Shown here piece after piece: positions 31,307-56,728 of a stretch of 64,000 bases of DNA; within the stretch, counting starts at the first letter, position 1; each line of letters starts with the position of its first letter. Source of the DNA: Desulfatibacillum alkenivorans DSM 16219 (GTDB lineage: Bacteria > Desulfobacterota > Desulfobacteria > Desulfobacterales > Desulfatibacillaceae); assembly GCF_900142135.1 (NCBI RefSeq), contig NZ_FQZU01000031.1:1-64000 (forward strand), given 5' to 3'. The notes beneath the pieces are model-generated. The model was not told where the DNA came from. It worked only from the letters and a program-made list of their open reading frames with translations, and made no database searches. The translations under genes were made by a program, and so were the position numbers.

Positions 31307-31344
31307 GTTTTTTTCGGAATATTCAAGACAAAAGGAGTCAATCC

Positions 31345-38419: not shown

Positions 38420-38450
38420 ATTAGATTGTTTTACTTTCCGTCGCCGTTTT

Positions 38451-39661: not shown

Positions 39662-40525
39662 TCAGGAAGCGCCCCTCAGGCCCATGATTTTTCTCGCCTC
39701 GTCCGGCGTTGCGGGCTCCTTGCCCAGGATGGACGCAGCCTTGACCGCCCATTCCACCAGCTCATAGCTGCCTTTGGCCAGCTCCCCGTTGGGAATCCGC
39801 ACGTTATCCTCCAGGCCTACGCGCATATGCCCGCCCATGATGCCGGATTGCAAGATGGCCGGAAACTCGTCCCAGGCCACGCCGCAGGACGTGAAATTGG
39901 CGTTGGGAGGCAAGGCGTGCACCAGGGCTGCAAAGGCGTCGGCCCGGAAAGCCTGTCCGCCGGCCACGCCGAACACGAAATTGAAATTCATGGGATCTTT
40001 GAAAAATCCCTGCTTCATGATGAGTTTGACGTTATCCAGCCCGCCCATGTCGTAGACTTCGATTTCAGGCCGCACCCCGTTCTCCTCCATGGCCCGGCCG
40101 AAATCCTGCAGCATGGTGAAGGTGTTGTCAAAGATGTAATCCACTAACACTTCGCCGGTCTTGCGGTCAATAGTGGCGAAGTTCATGGTGTTGGTGTTCA
40201 GGGACGCCATTTCCGGCTTGATCTTCACGATTTGCTCGATGCGCTGTTCGGGCGTCTTGTTCGGGCCCACGGCGGAGCTCAGGTTGACGATCAGTTCGGG
40301 GGTTTTGTCTTTGATGGCGTCGTACGTCTCCCGGATCCGCTCCACCTCGTGGGTGGCCATGCCGTCGTCCAGCCGGGAATGGACGTGGACCATGGCGGCG
40401 CCGGCCTTATACGCCTTGGCGGCCTCTTCGGCGAACTCCCGGGGCGTGTAAGGCACCGCCGGGTTGTGCTCTTTGCGGGTGGTGGCGCCGGACAAGGCGG
40501 CCGTGATGATGATTTTTCTCTTCAT
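39662..40525 (-). CDS. BKACE family beta-keto acid cleavage enzyme (DUF849)
   Basis: The 287-residue protein matches the BKACE family, first known from 3-keto-5-aminohexanoate cleavage (Kce). It starts MKRKIIITAALSGA, with zinc ligands H47 and H49 in MVHVHSR, an NLSSAVG segment, and PEMASLN and FGVAGGQ motifs. Family members condense a beta-keto acid with acetyl-CoA and release acetoacetate plus a CoA ester. That gives a CoA ester without ATP, useful in fermentation-like or beta-oxidation pathways. AAGGAT precedes ATG. First gene of a minus-strand operon with the Fe-S protein and double TetR. Confidence 0.93.
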   Translation of the reverse strand: MKRKIIITAALSGATTRKEHNPAVPYTPREFAEEAAKAYKAGAAMVHVHSRLDDGMATHEVERIRETYDAIKDKTPELIVNLSSAVGPNKTPEQRIEQIVKIKPEMASLNTNTMNFATIDRKTGEVLVDYIFDNTFTMLQDFGRAMEENGVRPEIEVYDMGGLDNVKLIMKQGFFKDPMNFNFVFGVAGGQAFRADAFAALVHALPPNANFTSCGVAWDEFPAILQSGIMGGHMRVGLEDNVRIPNGELAKGSYELVEWAVKAASILGKEPATPDEARKIMGLRGAS

Positions 40526-41181
40526 GGTTCGATCCTTTTCCGCCCCGGATTCATTGTCCGGCCGGGGCGCCGGGAGAGTGGGAGGCGTCTGGCGCCTTAT
40601 TATGGTTTTTAGCTTCCATGGGGCTGGCCCGTGGTCTTTGATTCAGGAAAGGCCCGGGGGGTTGGTTCCTGGAACCGGCGGTCTGTGCGGTCTGCCGGAC
40701 CGGCCTTCCGCCCATTTGAATACATATCGAAAACGCAGCCTATCGAATCAAAATCAGGGTCATCTGTCAATATAAATTTGCCAAAACTCTCCGTGTTTTT
40801 AAAAATAAAGCCTTGTTTTTATATAAAATTACTTCGAGGATCCGGGCGTAGTTCTTGAGAGATCTTGCTGCATTTACGGGTATTTAGCCGGTCTTTATTG
40901 AGCTTTATTCATAACGCTTTGCGTCAAAAAAGAATATTGAGTTAAAATATTCAAATTTAATTATAGTGAATAAAACCAAATATATAAAATTATAATTCCT
41001 TTCTTGTTCCCGTTTTTGGTCAAAAAATACTCTTGACAATCCCGGGGGGTAAGGGCTAAAGACAGGGCGAGGACGCTGAATATAATTCATTTGGGGGGCG
41101 GTCTAAGGCAAAAGTCAGTTGGAGCCCCCAATCCCCGAAAAACGGCCCCAAAAAGGCCCTTCTCACCCAGTCAGAGGCGTT
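40526..41181. other. Large AT-rich intergenic region between divergent operons
   Basis: No gene is supported in 650 bases. The inner part (40900-41000) is very AT-rich. It should hold the BKACE operon promoter (minus) and the acyl-CoA dehydrogenase operon promoter (plus); TTGACA at 41033 with TAAAGA 18 bases later is a weak plus-strand candidate. Confidence 0.5.
40932..40952. promoter_or_regulatory. Inverted repeat, possible operator
   Basis: GAATATT, seven bases, AATATTC. A perfect dyad in the divergent region; the double TetR is a possible binder, by position only. Confidence 0.4.
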
Positions 41182-42324
41182 ATGGAATTCGCGTTTTCCC
41201 GTGAACAACTCATGTTTAAAAAAGAAGTGCTCAATTTCGCCAAAAAGGAAATCGCCCCCAGGGCCCAGGAGCACGACCTCAAAGGAGAGTTCGACCTGGA
41301 ATCCTTCAAAAAAATGGCGGATTTCGGAATTCTGGGGCTGCACTTTCCCGAAGAATACGGCGGAAGCGGCGCCGGCGTCATCACCACGGCCCTGGCCGGG
41401 GAAGCCCTGGCCGAAGGCGGGGCGGACTCAGGCTTTTTGCTGGCCTACGGCGCCCATACCTTTTTATGCGGCGACACCATTTTCAGAAACGCCACGGAGG
41501 AGCAGCGGAAAAAATACATTCCCAAAATCTGCTCCGGCGAAATGATCGGCTGCATGGGCGTGACCGAGCCCGATGCAGGCTCGGACATGGCTTCCATGAA
41601 GACCACCGCCGAAAAGGCCGGCGGCAAATACATATTGAACGGCAGCAAGATGTTCATCACAAACGGCCCCATTGCCGACGTGGCCGTGGTCTACGCCAAG
41701 ACCGACCCTACGGCCAGGCACGCCGGGGTGTCGGCCTTTATCGTGGAAAAGGGAACCCCGGGCTTCTCCGCCGGGCCGCCTTTGAAAAAAATGGGCGTGC
41801 GCACCTCTTTGACCTCAGAGCTGATCTTCGCCAATTGCGAAATTCCCGCGGAAAACCTCCTGGGCAAGGAAGGGGACGGCTTTAAAATGGCCTCCCAGAC
41901 CGTGGAATGGGACAGAAGCGTGCTTCTGGCGCCCACCGTCGGGTCCGTGGCCTACCTTATTAACAAGTGCTCCCGCTACGCCAAGGATCGCATCCAGTTC
42001 GACCGCCCCATCGCCGAATACCAGGCAATCAAGCGCAAGCTGGCCGAGCTGAAAATATTCGAGGAAGCCGCCCGCTCCCTGGTGTACCGCATCGCCTGGG
42101 CCAAGGATCAGGGCCAGCCCCTGAACCACCTTTACGCCTCCGTGGCCAAGCTCTACATCGGCGACTGGAACATGGCGCCCATGAACGACGCGGTCACCCT
42201 TCACGGCGGATACGGCTATTGCCAGGAATACGATGTGGAACGGGTCTTCCGGGACGGCCGTCTGGCCGCCATCGGCGGGGGAACCTCGGACATCCAAAGG
42301 ATGATTATCAGCCGCATGATCTGA
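41182..42324 (+). CDS. Acyl-CoA dehydrogenase (functional-type subunit)
   Basis: The start at 41182 follows GAGG; the 380-residue protein has the three-part ACAD fold. FAD and substrate motifs are present: MGVTEPDAGSDMAS and ILNGSKMFITNG. The C-terminal RDGRLAAIGGGTSDIQR lacks the Glu before GT found in short/medium-chain enzymes. As in isovaleryl/long-chain types, the base may lie in the TVEWDRSVL helix, where Asp occupies the Glu position. It oxidises acyl-CoA to enoyl-CoA, passing electrons to ETF. The next gene is a second, degenerate ACAD, so the two may form one heteromeric enzyme. First gene of a long operon. Confidence 0.92.
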   Translation: MEFAFSREQLMFKKEVLNFAKKEIAPRAQEHDLKGEFDLESFKKMADFGILGLHFPEEYGGSGAGVITTALAGEALAEGGADSGFLLAYGAHTFLCGDTIFRNATEEQRKKYIPKICSGEMIGCMGVTEPDAGSDMASMKTTAEKAGGKYILNGSKMFITNGPIADVAVVYAKTDPTARHAGVSAFIVEKGTPGFSAGPPLKKMGVRTSLTSELIFANCEIPAENLLGKEGDGFKMASQTVEWDRSVLLAPTVGSVAYLINKCSRYAKDRIQFDRPIAEYQAIKRKLAELKIFEEAARSLVYRIAWAKDQGQPLNHLYASVAKLYIGDWNMAPMNDAVTLHGGYGYCQEYDVERVFRDGRLAAIGGGTSDIQRMIISRMI

Positions 42325-42372
42325 TCGCCCTCTGCGGTCTGCGTGTAAATGCCTTATCGGCGAGGAGCTGCA

Positions 42373-43482
42373 ATGCAATACGAGTTTTCACAACAAAGCA
42401 ACGAGCTGTTTGAAGCTCTGGAGTCCGCCATTTCCAACCTGGATATCAAGGACGGACAAGCGGACGACGCCCTGTTGAGAAGCGCCGCCGCCTCCCTGGC
42501 GTCCACCGGCTACCTGAACCTGGGCCTGAGCGAGGCCGGAGAATCGCCCGCCATGTTCAGGGCCATGGAAGCCGCGGCCGCCGCATCGCCCTCCCTGTAC
42601 CTGAAGCTGGAAGTCAGCGCCCGGGTTTTCGGACGGGCCGTGGCTCAATGGGGAAGCGACTGGCAAAAGGAAAAAATCCTGTCGCCTCTCCTTTTCGGCG
42701 AGTTGCTGGGAACCCTGGCCTTGTCCGAGAAAGCCCTGAACGTGGAAAACGATCCCCTGCAGACCATGGGCGAGAAAAACGGCGACGCGGTCGTCGTAAA
42801 CGGCCGGAAACAGTTTGTGGTGAACGGCGCGGGCGCCGACTGCATTGCAGTCGCCGGAACCCTGGACGGGCAGGGCGCCCTGTTTCTCATCCCCAAAGGC
42901 GCAAAAGGCATGGAAATGGGGCCCCCCATCTCCGCCCTCGGGTATGAAAGCGCCGGCATTTGCAGCCTGGAGCTGAAAGACTGCGCCGTTTCCGAGGCTC
43001 AGGTCATCTCCGGCCTGAAAATGGACGATATGCTGGACATGCTCCGGTTTTGGGAAAACCAGGTGCTCATCGGCGCCAGCCTGGGGCTTATGAAAGCCTC
43101 CTTTGAAGAGGCCCGCGTTTACGCAAAATCCCACAAGACCGGCGGCCGCCCCATCATCGCCTATCAGGAAGTGGGATTCCGGCTGTCCGACATGCTCACC
43201 CTGCATCAGACCGCCCAGTTGCTGGCATACCGGGCCGGGTGGATGGCCGACGCAAAGGACAAGGAGGCGCAGGCCCTGACCCTGTGCGCCAAGGTGTTCG
43301 CCACCGAAGCCTCCGAAAAGGTTTCCAGCGACGCCCTGAAAATTCTGGGCGCCAAGGGCTTTTCCACGCCCAACCCCGCCGAATCAGGCTTTCGAAGCTC
43401 CAAATATGGCCAGATCGCCGGAACATCCACGGAAATCAGCCGCATGAAAATCGGGGACGCAGTCCTGGGAAAAAGGAAATAA
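42373..43482 (+). CDS. Degenerate acyl-CoA dehydrogenase-like subunit
   Basis: The 369-residue protein starts at 42373 after GAGGAG. It keeps the ACAD outline (YEFSQQSNELFEAL N-terminus, a VVNGRKQFVVNGAGAD beta core, and IAGTSTEISRMKIG near the end). However the flavin loop T-E-P-x-x-G-S-D is replaced by LSEKALNVENDP, and no Glu precedes GT. It may bind no FAD or only part of it. Paired alpha/beta ACADs of this type are known in steroid side-chain degradation, where one chain supports the other. The gene lies 48 bases after its partner and ends before a 29-bp inverted repeat. Confidence 0.85.
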   Translation: MQYEFSQQSNELFEALESAISNLDIKDGQADDALLRSAAASLASTGYLNLGLSEAGESPAMFRAMEAAAAASPSLYLKLEVSARVFGRAVAQWGSDWQKEKILSPLLFGELLGTLALSEKALNVENDPLQTMGEKNGDAVVVNGRKQFVVNGAGADCIAVAGTLDGQGALFLIPKGAKGMEMGPPISALGYESAGICSLELKDCAVSEAQVISGLKMDDMLDMLRFWENQVLIGASLGLMKASFEEARVYAKSHKTGGRPIIAYQEVGFRLSDMLTLHQTAQLLAYRAGWMADAKDKEAQALTLCAKVFATEASEKVSSDALKILGAKGFSTPNPAESGFRSSKYGQIAGTSTEISRMKIGDAVLGKRK

Positions 43483-43608: not shown

Positions 43609-44499
43609 ATGGATATTTTAAGACTCACGGTATTAGGCGCAGGCACCATGGGGCATGGCATCGCGCAAAAGGCAGCCATGTCGGGCATCAAAACCACCTT
43701 GTTCGACATTGACCAGACCATGCTGGACAAGGCCCAGGGCATTATCTCGAAAAACATCGAAAAGCACTTTGTGGGCAAGGGAAAAATCACGGCGGAAGAG
43801 GGCGAGGAAATCCTGGGCCGTCTCAGCATGTCCACGGACCTGGTCGCCGCGGCCAAAGAGGCGGACATGGTCATTGAAGCCGTGCCGGAAAACCTGGAGC
43901 TGAAAAAAAGCCTGTTTTCCAAGCTGGATGAAATCTGCCCGGCCCACGCCGTCTTGGCCAGCAACACCTCCGTGCTGTCCGTCACCGCCATCGCCGGCGC
44001 CACCAAACGCCCGGAAAAATGCATCGGCGCCCACTTTTTCAATCCCGCTGCGGTCATGAAGCTGGTGGAAGTGGTCCTGCCCGTGGGCGTGGCCGAAGAA
44101 ACCGTGGAAACGGTCATGAACTTCTGCAAGCAGTTGGGCAAGGTTCCGGTCAGGGTCAAGGACGTGCCTGGATTCATCGTCAACCGCCTGTTGTGCCCCT
44201 TGTATATGGAAGCCGCCCAGATCGTTCTGGAAGGCACGGCCACGGCCGAGGAAGTGGACACCGCCATGAAGCTGGGCGCCGGACATCCCATGGGCCCCTG
44301 CGAGCTGGCCGACTTCGGCGGCTTCGACGTCATCCAGATGGCTCAGGACAGCATTTATGAATACACCCATCGCGAAAGCGACCGCCTGAACATCCTGTAT
44401 CGCAAGATGCTGGAGGCGGGCAGGCTGGGCCGGAAGAACGGCAAGGGCTTCTACGATTACGAAGCCGACGGAACCAAAAAGCCTTTCAAACTTTTTTAA
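43609..44499 (+). CDS. 3-Hydroxyacyl-CoA dehydrogenase (3-hydroxybutyryl-CoA type)
   Basis: The 296-residue single-domain enzyme oxidises (S)-3-hydroxyacyl-CoA to 3-oxoacyl-CoA with NAD+. VLGAGTMGHGIA near the N-terminus binds NAD; SNTSVLS, GAHFFNPAAVMKLVEVV and VKDVPGFIVNRLL are family motifs with the catalytic His-Glu dyad (H in AHFF, E in LVEVV). GHPMGPCELADFGG follows. Acts in beta-oxidation between the crotonase and the thiolase genes that follow. ACGGAGG precedes ATG. It may accept short- to medium-chain or branched substrates. Confidence 0.95.
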   Translation: MDILRLTVLGAGTMGHGIAQKAAMSGIKTTLFDIDQTMLDKAQGIISKNIEKHFVGKGKITAEEGEEILGRLSMSTDLVAAAKEADMVIEAVPENLELKKSLFSKLDEICPAHAVLASNTSVLSVTAIAGATKRPEKCIGAHFFNPAAVMKLVEVVLPVGVAEETVETVMNFCKQLGKVPVRVKDVPGFIVNRLLCPLYMEAAQIVLEGTATAEEVDTAMKLGAGHPMGPCELADFGGFDVIQMAQDSIYEYTHRESDRLNILYRKMLEAGRLGRKNGKGFYDYEADGTKKPFKLF

Positions 44500-44520: not shown

Positions 44521-45306
44521 ATGGCATTTGAAGACATCAGAGTGGAAAAAGCGGACGGAATCGCCGTCATCACCATAGACCGGCCCAAGGTTCTCAACGC
44601 CATTCGCTACGTGACCATGCTGGAGATCGACAAGGCTCTGGACGACATCGAGGAAGACGAAAGCATCCGGGTGCTGGTGATCACCGGCGCCGGAGACAAA
44701 GCCTTTATCTCCGGCGGCGACATTTCCATCATGGCCCGGGGCCAGGGATACGTGGAAACCCTGACCGAAACGCCCAAGGGCCAGGCTGTGTGCACGCGAA
44801 TCGAACATTTTCCCAAGCCGGTCATCGCCCGGATCAACGGATTCGCCCTGGGCGGAGGCACGGAAGTGGCCCTTTCCTGCGACATCCGCATCGCTGCGGA
44901 GCACGCCATTTTGGGCCTGCCGGAAATCAAGCTGGGCATTATCCCCGGCTACGGCGGAACCCAGCGTCTGCCGCGTTTGGTGGGCATGGGCAAGGCCAAG
45001 GAGCTGATCATGACCGGCGATCACATTTCGGCCATGGAAGCCCTGAACATTGGGCTGGTGAACCACGTGGTCCCCAAGGACGAACTGGACGTTCTGGTTT
45101 CCAAAATGGCCGGTAAAATCGCCAGCAAGAGCCCCATCGCCCTGCATATGGCCAAGGCCTCCATCAACAACGGCGTGCAGGCCGATCTCAGGACCGGGCT
45201 GGACTACGAAGCCCGCTGTTTTTCCTTGTGCTTCGGCTCGGAGGACAGGGTGGAGGGCACCAACGCATTCATGGAAAAGCGCAAGCCCAAGTTCACGGGC
45301 CGCTAG
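44521..45306 (+). CDS. Enoyl-CoA hydratase
   Basis: The 261-residue crotonase has TIDRPKVLNAI, FISGGDISIM and FALGGGTEVALSCDIRIA for the oxyanion hole. The catalytic motif GLPEIKLGIIPGYGGTQRLPRL is complete, with the two Glu residues expected for hydration of 2-enoyl-CoA (second Glu at EVALSCDIR and first at GLPE). It is the most canonical crotonase in the window. 21 bases after the dehydrogenase gene, AGGAAT before ATG. Cytoplasmic; central step of beta-oxidation. Confidence 0.94.
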   Translation: MAFEDIRVEKADGIAVITIDRPKVLNAIRYVTMLEIDKALDDIEEDESIRVLVITGAGDKAFISGGDISIMARGQGYVETLTETPKGQAVCTRIEHFPKPVIARINGFALGGGTEVALSCDIRIAAEHAILGLPEIKLGIIPGYGGTQRLPRLVGMGKAKELIMTGDHISAMEALNIGLVNHVVPKDELDVLVSKMAGKIASKSPIALHMAKASINNGVQADLRTGLDYEARCFSLCFGSEDRVEGTNAFMEKRKPKFTGR

Positions 45307-45343: not shown

Positions 45344-45401
45344 AGAAATTCTCGTTTGCCGGGGGTATTTACCTAATTTTTTGGGATAAAAGGTGGAAGC
45401 A

Positions 45402-46586
45402 ATGAAAGAAGTTTACTTGGTGGACGGAGTCAGAACGGCCATCGGCAGGATGGGCGGCTCCTTGTCCATGTTCAGGCCGGAGGAACTGGCCGCATTCGCC
45501 CTGAAGGGGCTCATTGAAAAAACAGGCATCGACCCGTCCATTGTGGACGACGTGCTCATAGGCCATGCCTGCACCAATAACGCGGCGGTGAACATCGCCA
45601 GGTGGGCGGCCTTGAAGGCGGGATTCCCCTTTTCCGTGCCCGCCCAGACCGTGGAAAGGCAATGCGGGTCCGCGCTCCAGACCATCAATTCCGCGGCCGC
45701 AAACATCAAGGCGGGTTTCGGCGAGGTGTACATCGCCGGAGGCTGCGAATCCTGGAGCAACCAGCCTTATCTCATGGAACGCCAAAAGCAGCCTTTCTCC
45801 CTGGTTCCGCCCAAATACATCACCCGGCAGGTCGGACCCACCGAGGAAACCGACGCGCCCATGGGCATTGTGGCGGAAATCCTGGCCGACGAGTTCGGCG
45901 TTTCCCGCGAAGAGCAGGACGCTTTCGGCCTTCGCAGCCAGACCCGGGCTATCCAGGCCATCAAGGAGGGATATTTCAAGGAGGAAATCGTTCCCGTGGA
46001 AATCCCCCAGAGGAAAGGCGACCCCATCATTTTCGATCAGGACGAGCATCCCAGGGAGACCAATCCCGAGAAGCTGGCCAAGCTGCGTCCCGCCTTTAAA
46101 AAGGACGGAACCGTCACCGCCGGAACCTCTTCGGGCCTGAACGACGGCGCCGTGGCCAACCTGATCATGTCCCGGGAAAAATGCGAGGAACTGGGCCTGA
46201 AGCCCCTGGCCCGCTTCGTCTCCTGCGCTCTGGGCGCCCGGGAGCCCAAGTACATGGGCGTGGCGCCCGTCATCGCCATGGAAAAAGCCCTGGTTAACGC
46301 AGGACTCACCATGGCCGACATGGACGTGGTGGAGTGCAACGAGGCCTTCGCCTCCCAGACCCTGGCCGTCATGAAAAGCCTCAAGAAAAACGGCCATGAG
46401 TTTGACGAGGAAAAATGGAATCCCAACGGCGGCGCCATCGCCTTCGGCCATCCCAACGGCATGTCCGGCGGCAGGCTGGCTCTGGCCGTAGTGCATCAGT
46501 TGAAGCGCATCCAGGGCCGTTACGGCATGGCCGCGCTGTGCATCGGCGGAGGCCAGGGAATCGCCGCCATCTTTGAAAGAATATAG
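45402..46586 (+). CDS. Acetyl-CoA C-acyltransferase (thiolase)
   Basis: The start at 45402 follows AGGTGG by a few bases; GTG 45393 is a weaker alternative. The 394-residue thiolase has the nucleophile C88 in VERQCGSALQTI, the His of GGAIAFGHPNGMSGGR, and the second Cys in MAALCIGGGQG. All three catalytic residues are present, so it should split 3-oxoacyl-CoA with CoA into acetyl-CoA and a shortened acyl-CoA. It completes the beta-oxidation set in this cluster. The next gene begins 9 bases after the stop. Confidence 0.95.
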   Translation: MKEVYLVDGVRTAIGRMGGSLSMFRPEELAAFALKGLIEKTGIDPSIVDDVLIGHACTNNAAVNIARWAALKAGFPFSVPAQTVERQCGSALQTINSAAANIKAGFGEVYIAGGCESWSNQPYLMERQKQPFSLVPPKYITRQVGPTEETDAPMGIVAEILADEFGVSREEQDAFGLRSQTRAIQAIKEGYFKEEIVPVEIPQRKGDPIIFDQDEHPRETNPEKLAKLRPAFKKDGTVTAGTSSGLNDGAVANLIMSREKCEELGLKPLARFVSCALGAREPKYMGVAPVIAMEKALVNAGLTMADMDVVECNEAFASQTLAVMKSLKKNGHEFDEEKWNPNGGAIAFGHPNGMSGGRLALAVVHQLKRIQGRYGMAALCIGGGQGIAAIFERI

Positions 46587-46594
46587 GGGGAATC

Positions 46595-47743
46595 ATGTCT
46601 GACAGAGTTGCAATAGTCGGAGTCGCCCAAACCCGGTTCAGCCCCAAAAGGGCCGACGCCAATGTGGCTGAACTGGCCTATGAGGTCATCGAGAAGGTTC
46701 TGAACGACACGGGCCTTTCCATTGAAAAGGACATCGACAACACCATCAGTTGCTCCCACGATATTTGGGACGGCCAGACAATTTCCAACATCGGCATTAC
46801 CGACGTGGCCGGCGGCCATCTTCGTACGGAAGAAAAAATGGCCATGGACGGCAGCACGGCCGCCTATTACGGGGCCGTGGGAATTCTGTCGGGCGAATAC
46901 GAGTGCACCTTGCTGCTGGCCCACACCAAAATGTCCCAGACTAACCGGCACATCGTCAATAACGACGCCTTTGAGCCCATATACAGCCGTCAGCTCGGCC
47001 TGGACTTCACCTCCGCAGGCGCCTTGCAGGCCAGACGGTTCATGCACGCCCACGGCCTTTCCAGGGAAGACTTCGCCCGGGTGGTCATGAAAAATCTGGG
47101 AAACGCCATGGCCAACCCGTTGGCCTGCCGGTTCGGCTATTACGGCCTGGACGACGTGTTGTCCGCTCCCATGGAAGCCGATCCCCTGACCGCCATGGAC
47201 GCGGCGCCTGACGTGGACGGCGCCGTGGCTATGATTGTCGCGTCGGAAAGCAAAGCGAAAAAGATTACGGACACGCCGGTTTGGATTCAGGGTCTTGGCT
47301 CCTGCTACGACGACTATTTTTTGGGCGATCGGGATCTGGCCGAGTGCATGGCTTTGGAAAAAGCCGCGGCCCAGGCGTACAAAATGGCCGGAATAAGCAA
47401 CCCCGTCAAAGACCTGGACTTGATCGAACTCTCCGACGAATTTTCCTACCAGGAGCTTTTGTGGCTGGAAGGCCTGGGAGTGTGCAAGCCCGGGGAAGGC
47501 GCCAGGCTGACTGAATCCGGCTTTACCTCCAGGGAGGGAGAGCTTCCCGTAAATCCTTCCGGCGGCGTGCTTTCCGGGGTTCCCGCCAATGTCATGGGTC
47601 TTAACCGGGTCGCCGAAGCGGCGCTCCAGTTGATGGGCAAGGCGGGCGAGCGCCAGGTGAAAGACGCCAAACGCGCGGTCGCCCAGGGGCATACAGGATT
47701 TTGCGGACAACACCAATGCGTCATCGTGCTGGGAAACCAATAA
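46595..47743 (+). CDS. Thiolase-fold (SCP-x/Ltp2-like) protein 1, catalytic residues altered
   Basis: The 382-residue protein has the thiolase fold of the lipid-transfer/SCP-x class: VAIVGVAQTRFSP N-terminus, AGALQARRFMHAHGLSREDFA, DLIELSDEFSYQELLWLEGL and VNPSGGVLSG. The nucleophile Cys should be in the segment just before GST at 86-88; the sequence there is KMAMDGSTAA with no Cys. The catalytic GHP His is replaced (SGVPANVMG). It therefore cannot be an ordinary thiolase. Retro-aldol enzymes of the Ltp2 type also lack the Cys and pair with DUF35 proteins, as two such genes do here. Confidence 0.82.
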   Translation: MSDRVAIVGVAQTRFSPKRADANVAELAYEVIEKVLNDTGLSIEKDIDNTISCSHDIWDGQTISNIGITDVAGGHLRTEEKMAMDGSTAAYYGAVGILSGEYECTLLLAHTKMSQTNRHIVNNDAFEPIYSRQLGLDFTSAGALQARRFMHAHGLSREDFARVVMKNLGNAMANPLACRFGYYGLDDVLSAPMEADPLTAMDAAPDVDGAVAMIVASESKAKKITDTPVWIQGLGSCYDDYFLGDRDLAECMALEKAAAQAYKMAGISNPVKDLDLIELSDEFSYQELLWLEGLGVCKPGEGARLTESGFTSREGELPVNPSGGVLSGVPANVMGLNRVAEAALQLMGKAGERQVKDAKRAVAQGHTGFCGQHQCVIVLGNQ

Positions 47744-47755
47744 GGGAGGGATGAT

Positions 47756-48925
47756 ATGAAACGCAATGTGGCCATAATCGGCGGCGGCCAAACTTATCAT
47801 GCCGCCCGCAGGCACGACGTGGACCAGGGCGAGATGGTCAACGAAGCCGTACGGGCCGCCCTTAAAGACGCCCGGATGACCATGGACGACATCGACGCGG
47901 TGTTTTTGGGCAACATGGAATTTTTCGAGGGAACCCATCTGACCGACTGCTGGCTGGCGGGCTCTGCAGGGGCTTACGGCAAGCCCGGCATGAAGATCAC
48001 CACCGGCGGCACCGTGGGCGCCACCATCATAGGCGCGGGCATGCATCATGTTGCGGCCGGCCTTTTTGACAAGGTTTTGTGCATCGGCTTTGAAAAGCAG
48101 GAGGAAGGGGACACGGGCGCCATCCTGAGCGGCGTGGCCCATCCATTATACGGAAGATCCATGGCCGGCGCGGCCGTGGGATATTTCGCCATGATGGGAA
48201 CCTCCTACATGGCCGCCTGGGGCGCCAAGGAAGAGCACGCCGCCATGGTTGCGGTCAAGGCCCGGCAGAACGCCCGCAAGAACCAATACGCCCATCTGAA
48301 GCTGGACATCACCATAGAAGACGCCTTGAACTCCCGCATGCTGGCCTATCCGGTCCGGATGCTGGATATGTGCCCGGCCTCCAACGGCGCCTGCGTCGTT
48401 ATTCTGGGAGACGAAAAAACCGCCAGGGACCGTTGCAAAAAGCCGGTCTGGATTCGGGCCATGGACACCGCCCATAACGAGCAATTTGAAATCGACTGGC
48501 GGAACGTCACCCTGACCAAGCCTATCTTCTCCACGGCTTGCGCGGCCAGGATGTACAAAAGGCTGGGCGTGGACGATCCCAAAAAATACTTTGACGTGTT
48601 CGAAATCTACGAGCCGGCCACCTGGGCGGAAATGGTCTGGTACGAAGACCTGGGCCTGTGCAGCCGGGGCGAGGGCTTCAAACTCATGGAGGAAGGCGCC
48701 ACGGCAATCGACGGCCCCATTCCCGTGAATCCTTCGGGCGGGGTTTTGTCCACAAACTGCATCGGCGCTTCCGCCATGCTGCGCGTCTGGGAGGCGGCTC
48801 TGCAAATTCGGGGCGACGCCGGAGGCCATCAGGTTCCCAAAGAGGTCAATCGGGCTTTGGCCACGGCGTACGGCGGAACCAACTGGACCGTCATGACCGC
48901 TTTGTCGAGCTCCACCGAGGATTAA
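47756..48925 (+). CDS. Thiolase-fold (SCP-x/Ltp2-like) protein 2, catalytic residues altered
   Basis: The 389-residue protein is a paralogue of the preceding one: NVAIIGGGQTYHAAR, then ITTGGTVGATIIGAG at the site of the nucleophile (no Cys), DVFEIYEPATWAEMVWYEDL and PVNPSGGVLSTNCIGA, where the GHP His is absent. Again a normal thiolase mechanism looks impossible. It probably forms an assembly with protein 1, since adjacent genes of this kind do so in steroid-type pathways. GGAGGG precedes ATG and two DUF35 genes follow. Confidence 0.82.
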   Translation: MKRNVAIIGGGQTYHAARRHDVDQGEMVNEAVRAALKDARMTMDDIDAVFLGNMEFFEGTHLTDCWLAGSAGAYGKPGMKITTGGTVGATIIGAGMHHVAAGLFDKVLCIGFEKQEEGDTGAILSGVAHPLYGRSMAGAAVGYFAMMGTSYMAAWGAKEEHAAMVAVKARQNARKNQYAHLKLDITIEDALNSRMLAYPVRMLDMCPASNGACVVILGDEKTARDRCKKPVWIRAMDTAHNEQFEIDWRNVTLTKPIFSTACAARMYKRLGVDDPKKYFDVFEIYEPATWAEMVWYEDLGLCSRGEGFKLMEEGATAIDGPIPVNPSGGVLSTNCIGASAMLRVWEAALQIRGDAGGHQVPKEVNRALATAYGGTNWTVMTALSSSTED

Positions 48926-48956
48926 ACCTAATGCGCCCTTGGGAAAGGATGTTGGC

Positions 48957-49457
48957 ATGAATCAGAAAAATACCGTTACCGAACAAATATGCGTCCCCAT
49001 GACCGTGGACGTCCCGTACCGGTTTGCGGCGGGCAAATACATGGCCAGGTTTTTGACGGAGTTGAGGGATAACGGCCGCTTTGTGGGCGTCAAGTGCCCG
49101 TCTTGCAACCGGGTTCAGATGCCTCCCCGCGTGGTGTGCGCCGCCTGTCATGTGAAGAACGACGAGTGGGTGGAGCTGTCCTCCGAAGGCACGATGGTCG
49201 GATTCACCATCATGTACCTGCCCCTGACGGATCCCACCACGGGGAAGCCCCACGAGCCGCCCTTTGTGTATGGGTCGGTCAGGCTGGACGGCTCGGACTC
49301 CACCGTGGAGCACATGGTCAACGTAGAGCCGGACCTGGACAAGATCTGGGTGGGCATGCGGATGAAAGTGGTTTTGCGGGACAGGGAAGAGCGCATTGGG
49401 GATTTGAGCGACATCATACATTTTGAACCTCTTCCGGGCCAGAAAAGGCCCCAGTAA
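48957..49457 (+). CDS. DUF35 zinc-ribbon/OB-fold protein 1
   Basis: The 166-residue protein has the DUF35 layout: an N-terminal helical part, a rubredoxin-like zinc ribbon with C47, C50, C61 and C64 (CPSCNRVQMPPRVVCAAC), and a C-terminal OB fold. In related systems DUF35 proteins bind CoA and are obligate partners of thiolase-fold enzymes, for example BbsA with BbsB or the DUF35 part of ChsH2 with Ltp2. The start at 48957 is chosen over TTG 48939. It follows thiolase-fold protein 2 by 31 bases. Confidence 0.88.
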   Translation: MNQKNTVTEQICVPMTVDVPYRFAAGKYMARFLTELRDNGRFVGVKCPSCNRVQMPPRVVCAACHVKNDEWVELSSEGTMVGFTIMYLPLTDPTTGKPHEPPFVYGSVRLDGSDSTVEHMVNVEPDLDKIWVGMRMKVVLRDREERIGDLSDIIHFEPLPGQKRPQ

Positions 49458-49480
49458 TATATTTTGGGGGGAATGAGATT

Positions 49481-49945
49481 ATGGAAAATAAATTCGTCCA
49501 GGCTCCATTTGAGGTGGATCAGCATATTACAGCTCACAGCAATTACTTCGCCGGAAAAATGGGCAGCAAATTTTACGTCGCCCTGAGAGACTCCAAGGAA
49601 ATCCTGGGCGTCCGGTGCAAGACCTGCTCCAAGGTGCTTTGGCCGCCCCGGGAAACCTGCGGCCGCTGCTTTTCTCTGCTTACGGAAGACGATTTGGTGA
49701 AAATCGGCCCGGGCGGGAGCGTGGTTTCGTTCACCCGCGTGCATTACAGCGAGCCCATCCATCCCGACGTGGACGCCCCCCTGGTTTACGCCGTGATTCA
49801 ACTGGACGGGGCCGACTCCGGCATGACCCATTTGATCGGCGGCGTGGATCCTGAGCAGATCGAAATCGGCATGCGCGTGACCCCGGTCTTCATAGAAAAC
49901 AGAAACGGCAATATTTTGGATATCGTGTATTTCAAGCCGGAATAA
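49481..49945 (+). CDS. DUF35 zinc-ribbon/OB-fold protein 2
   Basis: The 154-residue protein is like DUF35 protein 1, with zinc ligands C46, C49, C60 and C63 (CKTCSKVLWPPRETCGRC) and an OB fold starting near GSVVSFTRVHY. Two thiolase-fold genes with two DUF35 genes suggests two cognate pairs, or one mixed complex. It is the last gene before a strong hairpin. Function otherwise follows its partner and remains inferred. Confidence 0.88.
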   Translation: MENKFVQAPFEVDQHITAHSNYFAGKMGSKFYVALRDSKEILGVRCKTCSKVLWPPRETCGRCFSLLTEDDLVKIGPGGSVVSFTRVHYSEPIHPDVDAPLVYAVIQLDGADSGMTHLIGGVDPEQIEIGMRVTPVFIENRNGNILDIVYFKPE

Positions 49946-50067: not shown

Positions 50068-50153
50068 GATAGTGATTGATGGACGAGGGTTAATGACCTT
50101 AATTATCGCCCCGCAAAATGCGGCGGCGAAAGACGACAGTGAGGGGGCGACTC

Positions 50154-51185
50154 ATGGATGTTCAAGAGCAAAAAAATTATCTGGCCATGTGGGACGGCGA
50201 GTTATCCGCCGAAAGAAATCCGACCAACTACCAGCGTCAGGACGATGGGTCGCACATTTTTCATAATGAAAATGATTATTATGAATGGTGGTACTTTGAC
50301 GCGGCCTTTGACAACGGCTATCACGTGGTCATCACCTTTCATTACCACAACGTCTTTCTTAAACCCATGGCGCCGTCCATCCAGATTTTCATCTACAAGC
50401 CCGACGGCCAAAAAATCGAAAAATACGACCTCAGCCCCATGGAAAGCATCAGCGCCCACCCGGATTACTGCAACGTCAAAATGGGGGATAGCTGGGTCCG
50501 GGACATGGGAGACCATTATGAGCTTTCCATCATGGTGCGCGGCGTCGGCGCCAAGTTGCGCTTTACCAACACGGTTCCTTCGTGGAAGCCGGGCCGGGGC
50601 TTTAACTATAAAAACGAAGACACGGGCAAGATTTCAGGCTGGGTGGTTCCCCAGCCCTGCGCCAGGGTGGAAGGCGACCTCATCATCAAGGACGAAGTCA
50701 TCCCGGTTCAGGGAAGCGGCTATCATGACCACAATTGGGGCAACTGCCGTTTTCATGAAATCTTTTGGGGCTGGTACTGGGGCCGCATTCAAAACCCCAA
50801 ATACACCATCGTCTACGGATGGGTCATTCCCAAAGACAAGACAGGCCCCATCGTAACGCCCTTGCTCATCGCCCGGGACGGCGAGCTGCTTCTCTCCACC
50901 AACACCATGGAAGGCAAGTGCCTTGAAATAGGCAAGGACGAGAAGTTTCAGCGGGAGTATCCGACTCATCTGACCCTGACTACAGACGCACAGGGCGTGA
51001 AGATGAACCTGGGCATTACCGCCCACAGGCTTATCGAAGCCATGCAGCTTCCGCCCAGCACGGACTGGCCCCAGTATTACAACCGGTGCCTGGCCCATTA
51101 TAAGCTGGACCTGGAAGTGGACGGCAAAAAGGATCTGCTGGAAGGCGAGTTCCTGCACGAAACCATGCTGCTGCAAGAGGCCTAA
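50154..51185 (+). CDS. CrtC-like lipocalin-fold (AttH/isoprenoid hydratase-like) protein
   Basis: The start at 50154 follows GAGGGGGCG; 343 residues. YYEWWYFDAAF (43-52) and GYHDHNWGN (189-197) are the two hallmark motifs of the CrtC/AttH double-lipocalin family, in which carotenoid 1,2-hydratase adds water to an isoprenoid double bond. No carotenoid synthesis genes (crtE, crtB) lie nearby, so the substrate is likely a degraded lipid or terpenoid rather than a pigment. No signal peptide is seen. It is placed between the DUF35 gene and a MaoC gene, and two FAD oxidoreductases follow 4 kb on. Other members are uncharacterised. Confidence 0.8.
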   Translation: MDVQEQKNYLAMWDGELSAERNPTNYQRQDDGSHIFHNENDYYEWWYFDAAFDNGYHVVITFHYHNVFLKPMAPSIQIFIYKPDGQKIEKYDLSPMESISAHPDYCNVKMGDSWVRDMGDHYELSIMVRGVGAKLRFTNTVPSWKPGRGFNYKNEDTGKISGWVVPQPCARVEGDLIIKDEVIPVQGSGYHDHNWGNCRFHEIFWGWYWGRIQNPKYTIVYGWVIPKDKTGPIVTPLLIARDGELLLSTNTMEGKCLEIGKDEKFQREYPTHLTLTTDAQGVKMNLGITAHRLIEAMQLPPSTDWPQYYNRCLAHYKLDLEVDGKKDLLEGEFLHETMLLQEA

Positions 51186-51411: not shown

Positions 51412-51864
51412 ATGGAAAAAACCTATTTGGAAGATTACGAAGTGGGGGAGGAATTCACCTCCCCGGCCAGGACCATGACCGAAGCCGACATCGTCAATTT
51501 TGCAGGCTTGACGGGCGACTGGCATCCTATCCACACAAATGTGGAATTTGCTTCCCAAACGCCGTTTAAGGAGCGGATCGCCCACGGCATGCTGACTTTG
51601 TGCCTGGGCAGCGCGCTCATATTCCGGCTGGGGCAATACGTGGCCCTGCCGAAATCCTTTATTGCATTTTACGGCATGGACAAGGTGCGGTTTGTGGGGC
51701 CGGTGAAGATTCATGACACCATCAAGACGACCATGAAAATCCTGGCCTTGGAGAACAAGGACGACAAACGCGGGATCATGGTTTGCGAGAACACCATATC
51801 CAATCAACGGGACGAAGCCGTGGTGATTTACACCACCCGAGCCCTGGTGGGGCGCAGGCCTTAG
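51412..51864 (+). CDS. MaoC-like enoyl-CoA hydratase
   Basis: The 150-residue hot-dog protein has VGEEFTSPARTMTEADIVNFAGLTGDW and the hydratase loop GDWHPIH (35-41); D36 and H41 fit the catalytic pair of (R)-specific hydratases. FGMDKVRF follows. GGAGAAGG lies before the ATG. It sits alone between repeat copy A and the PHP gene. It should hydrate an enoyl-CoA made by one of the acyl-CoA dehydrogenases in the cluster. Confidence 0.9.
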   Translation: MEKTYLEDYEVGEEFTSPARTMTEADIVNFAGLTGDWHPIHTNVEFASQTPFKERIAHGMLTLCLGSALIFRLGQYVALPKSFIAFYGMDKVRFVGPVKIHDTIKTTMKILALENKDDKRGIMVCENTISNQRDEAVVIYTTRALVGRRP

Positions 51865-51876
51865 CCGGACGTAAGC

Positions 51877-52527
51877 GTGAGCATGGAATTCGATCTTCAC
51901 ATACACACCAACCGGTTTTCCGGATGCAGCAACATTGACCCCGGAGAGGTCATTGCAAGGGCGCTGACCGCAGGCCTTGACGGCATCGCCCTGACTGAGC
52001 ACGGAATTCGATGGCCGGACGGAGAGATCGAAAAATTGCTGGATCAATGCGGAGAGAAAAAGCTCATTGTCCTGCCGGGGGAAGAAGCCGCCTGCTACTC
52101 CTCCCGGGGGGAGTTCCAGGGCGAGTTCCTGGTGTTCGGGCATCCAAAAAGCCTTGGCTCGGCATTGAGCGTGGAAGCCCTGGTGGAGCGCGTTCATGAC
52201 TCCGGCGGCGTGGTAGTCGCCGCCCATCCGTTCAAACGGGCCCGGCGTGGAGACGCCTATTACGGCTGCGGCGACAACGCAGGAAAATACAACCTGGACG
52301 GCATGGAAACCCTGCATCCTTCCTATGACGAAGATGGCTTGGAAAAAGCCCGGGTTCTTTGCCAATCCGCCGGGCTGGCGTCCATAGGGGGCAGCGACGC
52401 TCACGCGCCCGAGCAGATCGGGATGGTCCGCACCGTGTTTGAGCGAAATATTCAAAGCCTGGAAGATCTCTGCAGGGAGATCCGGGAGGGGAGGTCCTGG
52501 GCGGCAATTGCAAATGGCAATGGATAG
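51877..52527 (+). CDS. PHP domain metal-dependent phosphoesterase
   Basis: The 216-residue protein shows the PHP motifs: FDLHIHTNRFSGCS at the N-terminus (H-x-H), ALTEHG, AAHPFKRARRG and GSDAHAPEQIG, which hold a two- or three-metal site. PHP proteins hydrolyse phosphoesters of nucleotides or small metabolites. The start is GTG 51877 or ATG 51883; neither has a strong ribosome site. The stop overlaps the start of the next phosphoesterase gene, so the two are coupled. Substrate unknown. Confidence 0.88.
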   Translation: MSMEFDLHIHTNRFSGCSNIDPGEVIARALTAGLDGIALTEHGIRWPDGEIEKLLDQCGEKKLIVLPGEEAACYSSRGEFQGEFLVFGHPKSLGSALSVEALVERVHDSGGVVVAAHPFKRARRGDAYYGCGDNAGKYNLDGMETLHPSYDEDGLEKARVLCQSAGLASIGGSDAHAPEQIGMVRTVFERNIQSLEDLCREIREGRSWAAIANGNG

Positions 52528-53267: not shown

Positions 53268-53353
53268 AAGAGTGCGAACACAAGCGATTGGGATTTTTCA
53301 TCTTCCGGAGAGAACGGCTATCTCACGGAAATAATAATCAAGGAGGAAATACG

Positions 53354-55159
53354 GTGGCGGATAAATTTTACAGCGAACGGAATCTTAAATTCCTGCTTTA
53401 CGAGGTTTTTGATGCAGCGTCCCTGACCAAATACGATTATTACAGCGAGCACAATAAAAAGATGTTCGACATGGTCCTGGCGGAGGCGGACAAGCTGGCC
53501 AAAAAAATGATGCGCCCCATCCTTGAGGAAATGGACCGCAACCCTCCGGAACTGGAAGACGGGTCCATCAGGGTGCATTCCGACGTCAGGAAGATTTTGG
53601 ACGAGTGCGGCAAGGGCGGTTGGATCACCGCTTCCAAGCCGATTGAGCACGGCGGCGATCAGCTTCCTTTGATGATTACGGACAGCTGCCAGTACATATT
53701 CTGCGCGGCCAACTACTCGGCGGCCGTGTATCCCGGATTGAACACGGGAGCGTCCCATCTGATAGAGGCCTTCGGTTCGGAAGAGTTAAACAAAACCTAT
53801 CTCCCCAATTTGCATAACGGCAAATGGCAGGGCACCATGGCTCTGACCGAGCCCGGGGCCGGAAGCTCTCTTTCCGACCTGGAAACTTCGGCGGAACCCA
53901 CGGATGAGGGATATTACCTGATCCGCGGTCAAAAGATATTCATTTCAGCAGGGGACCACAATTGCGTGGACAACGTTGTCCATCTCATGCTCGCGAAAAT
54001 CAAGGGAGGCCCTCCCGGAGTCAAGGGCATTTCGTTATTCGTGGTTCCCAAGTTTAGGCCCGCTCTGGGGGGCGGGCTGGAGCCCAATGATGTGGTTGCT
54101 TCGGGGGTGTACCACAAAATGGGCTACCGTGGGGCTCCCATTGCCCAGCTAAGTATGGGGGACGGCGACAATTGCCGCGGATGGCTGGTCGGGGAGCCCC
54201 ACAAAGGGCTCTTCTACATGTTCCAGATGATGAATGAAGCACGTCTTGGGGTTGGGTTGGGGGCTACGGCCATCGCGTCGGCTGCATATTATGCAGCCTT
54301 GGAATATTGCAGGGAAAGGCGGCAAGGTCGGAAAATTGGCCAAAAAGACCCCACCCAACCCCAGGTTCCCATCATCGAGCATGCGGACATCCGCCGGGCC
54401 TTGCTCTTTCAAAAGGCCATTATCGAGGGCTCGCACGCCCTGCTGCTGCAAGGCTGCAGATACGCGGACATGATGCGCGTGACCACCGGCGAGGAAAAGG
54501 AACGCTACTCCCTGCTTTTGGATCTCTTGACTCCCGTGGCCAAGACCTATCCCTCCGAAATGGGCATCCAGGCCGTCAGCCAGGGGCTGCAATGCTTCGG
54601 CGGATCCGGCTACTGCGACGACTATCCCCTGGAGCAGTACTATCGCGACATGCGCATTCATCCCATTCATGAAGGAACCACCGCCATCCACGGCCTGGAC
54701 ATCCTGGGCCGCAAGGTGGTTATGAAAGAAGGCAAGGCCTTCGCCATATTCAAGCAAGAGGTCTTGCAGACCGTTCAAAGCGCAGAGTCCGACAGCGAGC
54801 TGAAGGGATTCGGCGGAAAGCTGAAAGCCGCCCTGGAAGTCTTGGACGACGCCACCAAGCACCTGCTCAATCTGGCCGCCAAAAAGGGCCCGGAATACTA
54901 CCTGGCTGACGCCACCCTGTATCTGGAGTTGTTCGGCATCGTCACCATCGCCTGGCAATGGCTGGTCCAGGGGCTTGCGGCAAGCAAGGCTTTGAGCGAA
55001 GGCGCCAATAAAAAGGATGTGAACTTTTACAACGGCAAGATTCTTACCCTGAAATACTTTTACGCGTACGAGCTTCCCAAAATCACCGGCCTTAGCATAC
55101 GGCTGCTTAATACGGACGGCCTCACCGTGGACATGGATACGGCCATTTTCAATGATTAA
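53354..55159 (+). CDS. Acyl-CoA dehydrogenase, 601-residue form with C-terminal extension
   Basis: The start is GTG 53354, seven bases after AAGGAGG. The protein is about 220 residues longer than ordinary ACADs, as in the long FadE/DmdC-like group. MALTEPGAGSSLSD binds FAD, and the active-site Glu is present in PIHEGTTAIHGLD near residue 460. An extra helical C-terminal domain (from about 480) follows. It should oxidise a longer or bulky acyl-CoA. It is followed 15 bases later by an FAD oxidoreductase. The N-terminal 30 residues look like an ACAD N-extension of this class. Confidence 0.92.
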   Translation: MADKFYSERNLKFLLYEVFDAASLTKYDYYSEHNKKMFDMVLAEADKLAKKMMRPILEEMDRNPPELEDGSIRVHSDVRKILDECGKGGWITASKPIEHGGDQLPLMITDSCQYIFCAANYSAAVYPGLNTGASHLIEAFGSEELNKTYLPNLHNGKWQGTMALTEPGAGSSLSDLETSAEPTDEGYYLIRGQKIFISAGDHNCVDNVVHLMLAKIKGGPPGVKGISLFVVPKFRPALGGGLEPNDVVASGVYHKMGYRGAPIAQLSMGDGDNCRGWLVGEPHKGLFYMFQMMNEARLGVGLGATAIASAAYYAALEYCRERRQGRKIGQKDPTQPQVPIIEHADIRRALLFQKAIIEGSHALLLQGCRYADMMRVTTGEEKERYSLLLDLLTPVAKTYPSEMGIQAVSQGLQCFGGSGYCDDYPLEQYYRDMRIHPIHEGTTAIHGLDILGRKVVMKEGKAFAIFKQEVLQTVQSAESDSELKGFGGKLKAALEVLDDATKHLLNLAAKKGPEYYLADATLYLELFGIVTIAWQWLVQGLAASKALSEGANKKDVNFYNGKILTLKYFYAYELPKITGLSIRLLNTDGLTVDMDTAIFND

Positions 55160-55174
55160 TCAGAGGAGACAACC

Positions 55175-56707
55175 ATGACCGACCAAAATAAATATGACGC
55201 CATAATCATAGGGGCCGGAGTGGGCGGCCTCACTGTGGGATCGCTTTTGGCAAAGCACGGCAAAAAGGTGCTGATTCTTGAACAAAACGACCGGGTAGGG
55301 GGCAGGGCCTTGTCCGTAGCCGGCGATGAAATCACCCAACGCGGCGCCCAATGGTACAAGGACCTCCTGGAAACCCAATACACCTATGTGGCCAACGCCG
55401 AACCTCAGTTGGAGGAGCTTGTGAAAAGCGGCATGCTGAACGGATACGTTCTGGATGTGGGATACCACGCCCTCAGCATGAACGGCAACGCCTACCTGTA
55501 TGACTTTGTGCAACAGATCGGCGGCATAGACGGCGTGAAAATGAACGGCAGCCATTACGGCACCTATTACAAGGGCGAGTTTTACATGGACCTGATCGGG
55601 TCCCAGCCCATAGACCCCAGATACCTGGAAATCGCGGAAAGGGAGAAAATTCCCTTTTTCAAATATTACACCACGCCGTACAAACTTAATGATGAACAAA
55701 TCGACGAGTTGGAAAGGGTCTCCCTCCAGCAATGGGGAGAGGAAATGGGCCTGACCAAAAACGACATCCTTTGGAACAATCTCTGCTCGGTCAGCACCTT
55801 GTTTTCCACCATCAACAATCCTGACGACATTTCCATCGGCGACATCTTCCGTTTCTTCAAGCACGCGGTCAGCCCCAAGCTGGAAAAAGGGCTGTGCGAA
55901 TACGTGGGCGGATTCGTCTCCGGCGGCGTTATGGAATGGAGCAAAGCCGTGGCCCGCAAGTATCAGGAATTGGGCGGCGAACTGGCTCTGGAAACCAGGG
56001 TTCGGGAAGTGGTTATGGAGAACGGCAGGGCGACCGGCGTGATTGCGGAAAACGGCAGCGGAGAAAAGAAGGTTTATCAATCAGAAGCCGTAGTGAGCAA
56101 CGTTCCGGCCCAGGATTCCTTCAAGTTCATGGACAAATCCCAATTTCCCGGAGACTGGGCTCAAAAGACCGAAACCATGTACGGCTACGGCAGCTACGTC
56201 CCGTACTGGGGCCTCAACTCCCTGGCCATGCCCGAAGAGCACGCCGTACGCAATTACAAAAACAGCTGCGTCCTGCCCAAGGACGAAGGCTTTGATTACG
56301 ACGTATATATTTGCTGGAGCATCCAATCGGCCTTGGATCCCTCCGTGGCGCCGGACGGCAAGTATCTTTACACGGCCTATCTGCCCCTCACCGAGTCCGA
56401 AGCCAGGAATAAGGTGCTGGTGGATAAAATCGTCAAACGCCTGCCGGATTTTATGGAAGAAATTTATCCCGGCTTCAAAAAAACCATCGACTGGAAACTG
56501 GACCTCATGTGCTGGAAGCTGGAAGGCGTGGCCAAAAGCGTGTCCCAGGCAGGCACCCAAAAAGTTCCGGTCAAGTCTCCCCACGTGGAAGGCTTGTACT
56601 TTGCCGGAGACACGGCCAAGGGCTACGGCGTGGCCATGGACTGCGCCTGCACCTCGGGTATGATTTGCGCGTCCGAAATGCTGGGCGTGGATTTTGGAGT
56701 CCGCTAA
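55175..56707 (+). CDS. Phytoene-desaturase-like FAD oxidoreductase
   Basis: The 510-residue protein starts after GAGGAG. An N-terminal FAD motif, IIIGAGVGGLT (residues 10-20) with EQNDRVGGRA downstream, and a C-terminal GLYFAGDTAKGYGVAMD place it with the CrtI/CrtN/amine-oxidase group. These enzymes desaturate, isomerise or saturate isoprenoid-type chains. It is part of a two-gene FAD pair with the next gene and follows the long ACAD. Substrate cannot be read from sequence; a role on a terpenoid or polycyclic CoA ester is inference. Confidence 0.88.
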   Translation: MTDQNKYDAIIIGAGVGGLTVGSLLAKHGKKVLILEQNDRVGGRALSVAGDEITQRGAQWYKDLLETQYTYVANAEPQLEELVKSGMLNGYVLDVGYHALSMNGNAYLYDFVQQIGGIDGVKMNGSHYGTYYKGEFYMDLIGSQPIDPRYLEIAEREKIPFFKYYTTPYKLNDEQIDELERVSLQQWGEEMGLTKNDILWNNLCSVSTLFSTINNPDDISIGDIFRFFKHAVSPKLEKGLCEYVGGFVSGGVMEWSKAVARKYQELGGELALETRVREVVMENGRATGVIAENGSGEKKVYQSEAVVSNVPAQDSFKFMDKSQFPGDWAQKTETMYGYGSYVPYWGLNSLAMPEEHAVRNYKNSCVLPKDEGFDYDVYICWSIQSALDPSVAPDGKYLYTAYLPLTESEARNKVLVDKIVKRLPDFMEEIYPGFKKTIDWKLDLMCWKLEGVAKSVSQAGTQKVPVKSPHVEGLYFAGDTAKGYGVAMDCACTSGMICASEMLGVDFGVR

Positions 56708-56728
56708 CCTCGTTAAAAGGAGAACGCC

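Follow-up and report, generated by a model that had tools for sequence, protein, structure and literature searches.

In a 64,000-nucleotide stretch of Desulfatibacillum alkenivorans DSM 16219 (contig NZ_FQZU01000031.1, positions 1 to 64,000; hereafter the window), four plus-strand genes are tightly packed at 46595-49945, with intergenic gaps of 12-23 bases. The first two, T1 and T2, encode thiolase-fold proteins, and the last two, D1 and D2, encode DUF35 proteins (Table 1). The open reading frames (ORFs) agree with those of a preliminary description made from the sequence alone. Pfam recognises Thiolase_N and Thiolase_C_1 in both T1 and T2, and zf-ChsH2 and OB_ChsH2_C in both D1 and D2, in keeping with the earlier claim that two DUF35 genes follow directly; NCBIfam likewise assigns the first two proteins to the thiolase superfamily, as 'thiolase domain-containing protein'. 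T1 begins 8 bases after an ordinary thiolase gene, which is intact, as had been described.

Table 1 Genes of the T1-T2 cassette and of the surrounding operon in the window
Feature	Position	Strand	Remarks
T1, thiolase-fold subunit, Ltp4/PRK07937 side	46595..47743	+	382 residues; loop KMAMDGS, S280-D-E-F for HDxF, GVP for GHP
T2, thiolase-fold subunit, Ltp3/PRK08313 side	47756..48925	+	389 residues; TTGGT, Y285-E-P-A and N334 for Cys, HDxF and GHP His; likely the base-bearing subunit of the pair
D1, DUF35: zinc ribbon CPSC..CAAC and OB fold	48939..49457	+	172 residues; predicted T2 partner
D2, second DUF35: CKTC..CGRC	49481..49945	+	154 residues; in relatives, a MaoC or BKACE fusion at the orthologous position
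Intact ordinary thiolase, same operon	45393..46586	+	TIGR01930, 446 bits, above cut-off; Cys at nucleophile position and GHP present
3-Hydroxyacyl-CoA dehydrogenase, operon	43609..44499	+	kept beside T1-T2 in L067, L068 and L082
Enoyl-CoA hydratase, crotonase type, operon	44521..45306	+	kept in L067, L068 and L082
Two acyl-CoA dehydrogenase genes, operon start	41119..43482	+	
Beta-keto acid cleavage enzyme (BKACE)	39662..40525	-	divergent from operon
CrtC-like lipocalin-fold protein	50118..51185	+	weak family match; kept beside cassette
MaoC hydratase	51412..51864	+	clusters L067 and L069 hold copies with 58-72% identity
Acyl-CoA dehydrogenase and two CrtI/amine-oxidase-like flavin adenine dinucleotide (FAD) proteins	53288..57775	+	

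Catalytic-site residues of T1 and T2

The preliminary description held that both thiolase-fold proteins lack the catalytic Cys and His, and the four segments that it quoted are all present. The sites read EKMAMDGST, LSDEF and LSGVP in T1, and KITTGGT, IYEPA and STNCIGA in T2. Aligned with solved thiolases, T2 carries Gly at the nucleophile position, Tyr285-Glu-Pro287-Ala in place of the HDxF motif and Asn334 where thiolases have the GHP His. The loop of T1 likewise lacks Cys, Ser280-Asp-Glu-Phe replaces HDxF, and Val replaces the GHP His. The nucleophile Cys and GHP His of thiolases of the 3-ketoacyl-coenzyme A (CoA) or SCP2 type are thus absent from both proteins. In the same alignment, BbsB, SCP2-thiolase and archaeal thiolases keep Cys, HD(A/C)F and GH(P/A), while Ltp2 and Sal, like T2, carry Gly and Tyr; T2 therefore has the hallmarks of the Ltp2/Sal class, no nucleophile Cys and a Tyr for the HDxF His, and T1 shares the first of them, with Ser at the base position. 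Since no Cys lies between C53 and C104 of T1 or between C65 and C109 of T2, a register shift cannot conceal the nucleophile. We also checked for a relocated Cys-His pair by recording how well each Cys and each His of the two proteins is conserved; this gave no candidate nucleophile in the catalytic loop.

C206 of T2 is fully conserved and C213 mostly so, both within the stretch MCPxSDGAC, and these residues could be taken to favour a thiolase/acyltransferase complex (PhlABC- or BbsAB-like) with a nucleophile other than the usual one or with a different route of acyl transfer. However, the equivalent stretch contains Cys in intact thiolases as well, namely BbsB (QCCGIADGAA) and zebrafish SCP2-thiolase (CCPTSDGAG), so that C206 and C213 are not a moved nucleophile. 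Moreover, T1 has no invariant Cys, and T2 has lost the HDxF His and has Asn for the GHP His.

To see how far these features are conserved, we drew relatives from the same order and from named genomes (at least 582 confirmed stretches, of which the best 77 loci were kept). T2 holds a stable remodelled site, near-invariant over 108 distinct sequences of bacteria and archaea (Gly in 108, Tyr in 107, Pro in 106 and Asn in 106). T1 is more variable. Among 99 sequences, the nucleophile position is Gly in 82, Ser in 13 and Ala in 4, the base position is Ser in 36, Tyr in 33 and His in 10, and the GHP position is Asn in 55 and His in 32; the loss of Cys alone is thus universal in T1. One T1 subgroup retains Tyr and His, and the subgroup of the window has neither. 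Because the residue loss is kept across the T1 and T2 families, it is due neither to chance nor to sequencing error. The degenerate T1 site of this organism (Ser, Val), together with the other enzymes that DUF35 partners carry in relatives, would fit a picture in which T1 and T2 are catalytically dead scaffolds, carrying DUF35-linked enzymes or binding acyl-CoA for the adjoining thiolase. Yet a dead scaffold needs no such constancy as the T2 site displays, and we hold this explanation to be very unlikely.

Kinship with DUF35-dependent aldolases

A FastTree phylogeny placed T1 and T2 as monophyletic sister clades, jointly sister to Ltp2, Sal and 4u4e and with thiolases outside the group, and IQ-TREE (55 sequences) gave the union of T1/T2 with Ltp2/Sal/4u4e an ultrafast bootstrap (UFBoot) of 100. 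Trees in which T1/T2 were forced to join BbsB, the acetoacetyl-CoA thiolases or the SCP2-thiolases were rejected by the approximately unbiased (AU) test (p 0.010, 0.027 and 0.015, respectively). An analogy drawn earlier with BbsAB, the benzoylsuccinyl-CoA thiolase (PDB 7pxp) that likewise joins a thiolase fold to DUF35 in an anaerobic pathway, fails on these grounds: BbsB keeps its nucleophile Cys, HDAF and GHP, and, the common clade being rejected, the likeness is one of architecture only. The best match to BbsAB reached 144 of 750 bits.

AlphaFold2 single-chain models built from family alignments reached predicted local distance difference test (pLDDT) scores of 87 (T1) and 86 (T2). Both models match thiolase-fold chains over their full length, T1 with Z scores of 45-52 against chains of thiolase, acyltransferase and aldolase complexes. 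They lie as near to thiolase/DUF35 complexes (6esq, Z 52-53; PhlC, 48; BbsB, 47-50) as to aldolases (Ltp2 and Sal, 44-46), which can be read in favour of the thiolase/acyltransferase complex. But Z scores of 42-53 were obtained for all thiolase-like and DUF35-type relatives, so that the ranking does not discriminate thiolases from aldolases and was not used to assign function. As the tree rejects a grouping with BbsB or thiolases, we consider a thiolase/acyltransferase activity unlikely.

The preliminary description had pointed to retro-aldolases of the Ltp2 type, and the phylogeny, the conserved His-to-Tyr change and the DUF35-hydratase fusions described below support this suggestion well. 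Ltp2-ChsH2(DUF35) (PDB 6ok1) belongs to the same superclade, shows the same change of Cys to Gly and of the HDxF His to Tyr, and needs its DUF35 partner; in contrast to the T1/T2 pair, Ltp2 is described with a single thiolase-like protein. Sal-Shy(DUF35) (PDB 9myr) has the same Cys-to-Gly change and a DUF35-MaoC fusion like some T1/T2 relatives, and differs in its central Sal homodimer and in a Cys3His zinc site, where D1 and D2 have Cys4. The Tyr that replaces the HDxF His is the catalytic base in Sal and Ltp2 according to a mutagenesis study (PMC12329534), and Tyr285 of T2 aligns with Tyr302 of Sal and Tyr294 of Ltp2.

A closer comparison, missed by that description, is Ltp3-Ltp4, which later papers (PMC6678751; PMC6593523), following Wilbrink et al. 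2012, describe as a heteromeric aldol-lyase acting on sterol side chains branched at C24. Actinobacterial members of both families (loci L131 and L132) exceed the cut-offs of PRK07937 ('lipid-transfer protein') on the T1 side and of PRK08313 on the T2 side, and in the tree the PRK07937 members fall within the T1 clade and the PRK08313 members within the T2 clade. The window proteins score 165 bits against the PRK07937 cut-off of 419 (T1) and 377 bits against the PRK08313 cut-off of 514 (T2) and are thus relatives, not subfamily members. Upstream of each actinobacterial pair lies the gene of a protein carrying two OB_ChsH2_C domains. In L131, FadD19- and EchA19-like genes lie just upstream, the EchA19 model match being strong yet just below its cut-off, and the layout matches the order fadD19 (Rv3515c), echA19 (Rv3516), Rv3521, ltp4 (Rv3522) and ltp3 (Rv3523).

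The two systems share a tandem T1/T2 pair of the same two clades, a DUF35 partner, a CoA ligase and a hydratase in the cluster, and the T2 signature Gly-Tyr-Pro-Asn. We propose that T1 and T2 probably combine, as two different subunits, into a single acyl-CoA aldol-lyase (retro-aldolase) of the Ltp4/Ltp3 type, which the two DUF35 proteins would clamp. The pair would then represent an anaerobic variant of an already known kind of enzyme. The actinobacterial members are, on the other hand, about 43% (T2) and 30% (T1) identical to the window proteins, and have one fused two-OB DUF35 protein in contrast to the two separate DUF35 genes of the window. The window further differs in that CrtC/CrtI-like genes and BKACE accompany a presumably anaerobic beta-oxidation operon, and no steroid-ring genes were recognised in it.

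Cassette linkage and the proposed reaction

As in Ltp3-Ltp4, the two unlike thiolase-fold proteins are encoded in tandem: in 102 of 105 testable loci, T1 immediately precedes T2 in the same orientation. The loci normally contain two DUF35 ORFs, most often arranged as D2-T1-T2-D1 or T1-T2-D1-D2. The pairwise distances of T1 are correlated with those of T2 (0.89; the highest value under permutation was 0.12), and D1 shows, once the other proteins are accounted for, a partial co-variation of 0.59 with T2 but of -0.06 with T1 (64 complete cassettes; 100% of resamples). Shared descent inflates such correlations, and they are therefore used as supporting evidence only. The earlier suggestion that each thiolase-fold protein has its own DUF35 partner is supported for D1, which co-varies specifically with T2, but not for D2, for which no preference was resolved; in the complex, D1 would sit on T2 and D2 probably on T1.

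Gene fusions in relatives link the cassette to further enzymes. DUF35-MaoC hydratase fusions occur in four loci (L053, L057, L062 and L065), the same arrangement as in Shy, whose hydratase feeds Sal. N-terminal SCP2 sterol-carrier domains are fused to DUF35 in three others (L066, 9204-10364; L067, 17717-18937; L105, 11193-12383). A Pfam-confirmed DUF35-BKACE fusion lies directly downstream of T1-T2-D1 in L105 (12395-13822), and further such loci, including L110 (12290-13825), were recognised by ORF length and identity. The BKACE of the window is 66-75% identical to the DUF35-fused copies, and in L067 a cassette of the window type and a BKACE-fused cassette adjoin. No report of a BKACE-DUF35 link was found in the open literature. 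Taken together, the fusions and the BKACE identity suggest a route of hydration, retro-aldol cleavage and keto-acid cleavage.

In the proposed reaction, a hydratase, possibly the MaoC protein of the window, would add water across a 2,3-enoyl-CoA to give a beta-hydroxyacyl-CoA, which would bind the complex between T2 and its DUF35 protein. Tyr285 of T2 would remove the proton of the beta-hydroxyl, and the bond between the alpha and beta carbons would cleave to yield acetyl- or propionyl-CoA together with a ketone or aldehyde. Without a nucleophilic Cys, formation of an acyl-enzyme is not possible. Splitting of the C-C bond next to an alcohol is the most likely activity of T1-T2. The substrate would probably be beta-branched (a tertiary alcohol, as had been suggested), beyond the reach of the adjoining ordinary thiolase. 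With Ser at its base position, T1 of this organism probably plays a structural or auxiliary part. If the substrate is carboxylated, the product would be a beta-keto acid, the substrate of BKACE, and the neighbouring BKACE would convert it with acetyl-CoA to an acyl-CoA and acetoacetate.

A wider proposal, which we put forward tentatively and regard as doubtful in its full form, is that the cassette forms the centre of an O2-independent module that is widespread and acts on beta-branched acyl-CoAs. A hydratase, the heteromeric retro-aldolase and BKACE would be joined in one DUF35-tethered assembly, turning a carboxylated tertiary alcohol into acetyl- or propionyl-CoA and a beta-keto acid, and the latter, through BKACE and acetyl-CoA, into an acyl-CoA and acetoacetate. 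The carboxylated aldol product of the sterol case must be re-esterified, according to a review (PMC6678751). If the proposal is correct, the module would be a bypass resembling 3-hydroxy-3-methylglutaryl-CoA (HMG-CoA) lyase for bulky branched substrates that avoids the second CoA ligation. The DUF35-BKACE fusion offers a way to test what becomes of the product.

A decarboxylase or condensing enzyme of the KSQ/TbSLP kind, which would need no nucleophile because Asn334 and Tyr285 stabilise the enolate of a beta-keto or malonyl-type acyl-CoA, might account for the invariant Asn in place of the GHP His. TbSLP shares the Tyr motif and slowly decarboxylates malonyl-CoA (PMC12329534). With TbSLP in mind, the same paper tested Sal-Shy for malonyl-CoA decarboxylation, yet its authors maintain that TbSLP itself is an aldolase; the hydratase fusions, moreover, indicate a beta-hydroxyacyl-CoA and not a malonyl-type substrate. 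We thus hold such a decarboxylase or condensing enzyme to be very unlikely.

Several points weigh against an Ltp4/Ltp3-type retro-aldolase. The equation of PRK07937 and PRK08313 with Ltp4 and Ltp3 rests on synteny and naming and not on the R. rhodochrous sequences. The function of Ltp3-Ltp4 was reportedly assigned from mutants, as far as papers citing Wilbrink's 2012 work relate, and no study of the purified enzyme was found in the open literature. Neither general acid of the Ltp2/Sal class is present in T2: Pro287 occupies the position of the Sal acid Cys304 and of the Ltp2 oxyanion residue His296, and Asn334 that of the Ltp2 acid Tyr344. Additionally, the distance correlation between T1 and T2 partly reflects shared ancestry, and the subfamily of the window is not the one fused to MaoC or BKACE.

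Distribution and genomic setting

We examined the spread of the pair beyond the window by profile search. A strong T2-profile match was found in 38 of 296 sampled genomes of the phylum (completeness of at least 90%), often several per genome; the weakest matches listed can be T1 members. Among the relatives kept from named genomes, close T2 proteins (82-83% identical) come from Desulfatitalea, Syntrophaceae and other Deltaproteobacteria, and the T1-T2 pair occurs in relatives of the sulfate reducers, Syntrophaceae, Chloroflexi and Lokiarchaeia. No match was found in viral contigs. Four lokiarchaeial loci (L083, L086, L094 and L104) have T1-T2 and DUF35 genes with a BKACE gene nearby on the opposite strand. 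The genome of D. alkenivorans itself holds a second T1-T2-D1-D2 cassette (L047, G000:C73, 4231-7532), of the subgroup with YDAF kept in T1; its neighbour on C73 at 571-1782 is a paralogue, 56% identical, of the protein at 37235-38503 of the window, which is a single ORF with two putative TetR-type halves in tandem.

Beta-oxidation is blocked by carbon skeletons with methyl or ethyl branches, and it is, to our knowledge, largely open how such skeletons are cleaved by anaerobes. With a retro-aldol step, bacteria can break down branched molecules that are inaccessible to ordinary beta-oxidation, and the pair described here would extend Ltp3-Ltp4-type chemistry far beyond sterol-degrading actinobacteria. 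The T2 signature offers a direct means to recognise such enzymes, whose current annotation goes no further than thiolase domain protein or acetyltransferase.

The anaerobic use put forward earlier would agree with the setting suggested by the close relatives and by two glycyl radical enzymes at 28005-33756 of the window. These are 799 and 803 residues long and of the PFL2-3 subfamily, reach none of the equivalog cut-offs, and flank the gene of an activating enzyme. The dehydrogenases, hydratases and intact thiolase of the operon fit a modified beta-oxidation in which the proposed aldolase would act at the branch point. The CrtC- and CrtI-like genes kept beside the cassette hint, without proof, at an isoprenoid or polycyclic substrate. 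Searched against the PDB, the CrtC-like protein gave a weak match only, to a CrtC-domain protein (E 0.03), and the CrtI-like protein chiefly matches to nucleotide-binding domains, and therefore no substrate can be read from either.

In L105 (15827-17604) and L109 (15887-17648), a CoA-transferase family gene pair reminiscent of IpdAB of steroid ring degradation lies between two cassettes; an NCBIfam search with this pair returned no match. The operon of the window also includes a PHP-domain protein (51877-52527), and a PHP-type gene stands just upstream of T1 in BKACE-fused cassettes (L085, L105, L108 and L110).

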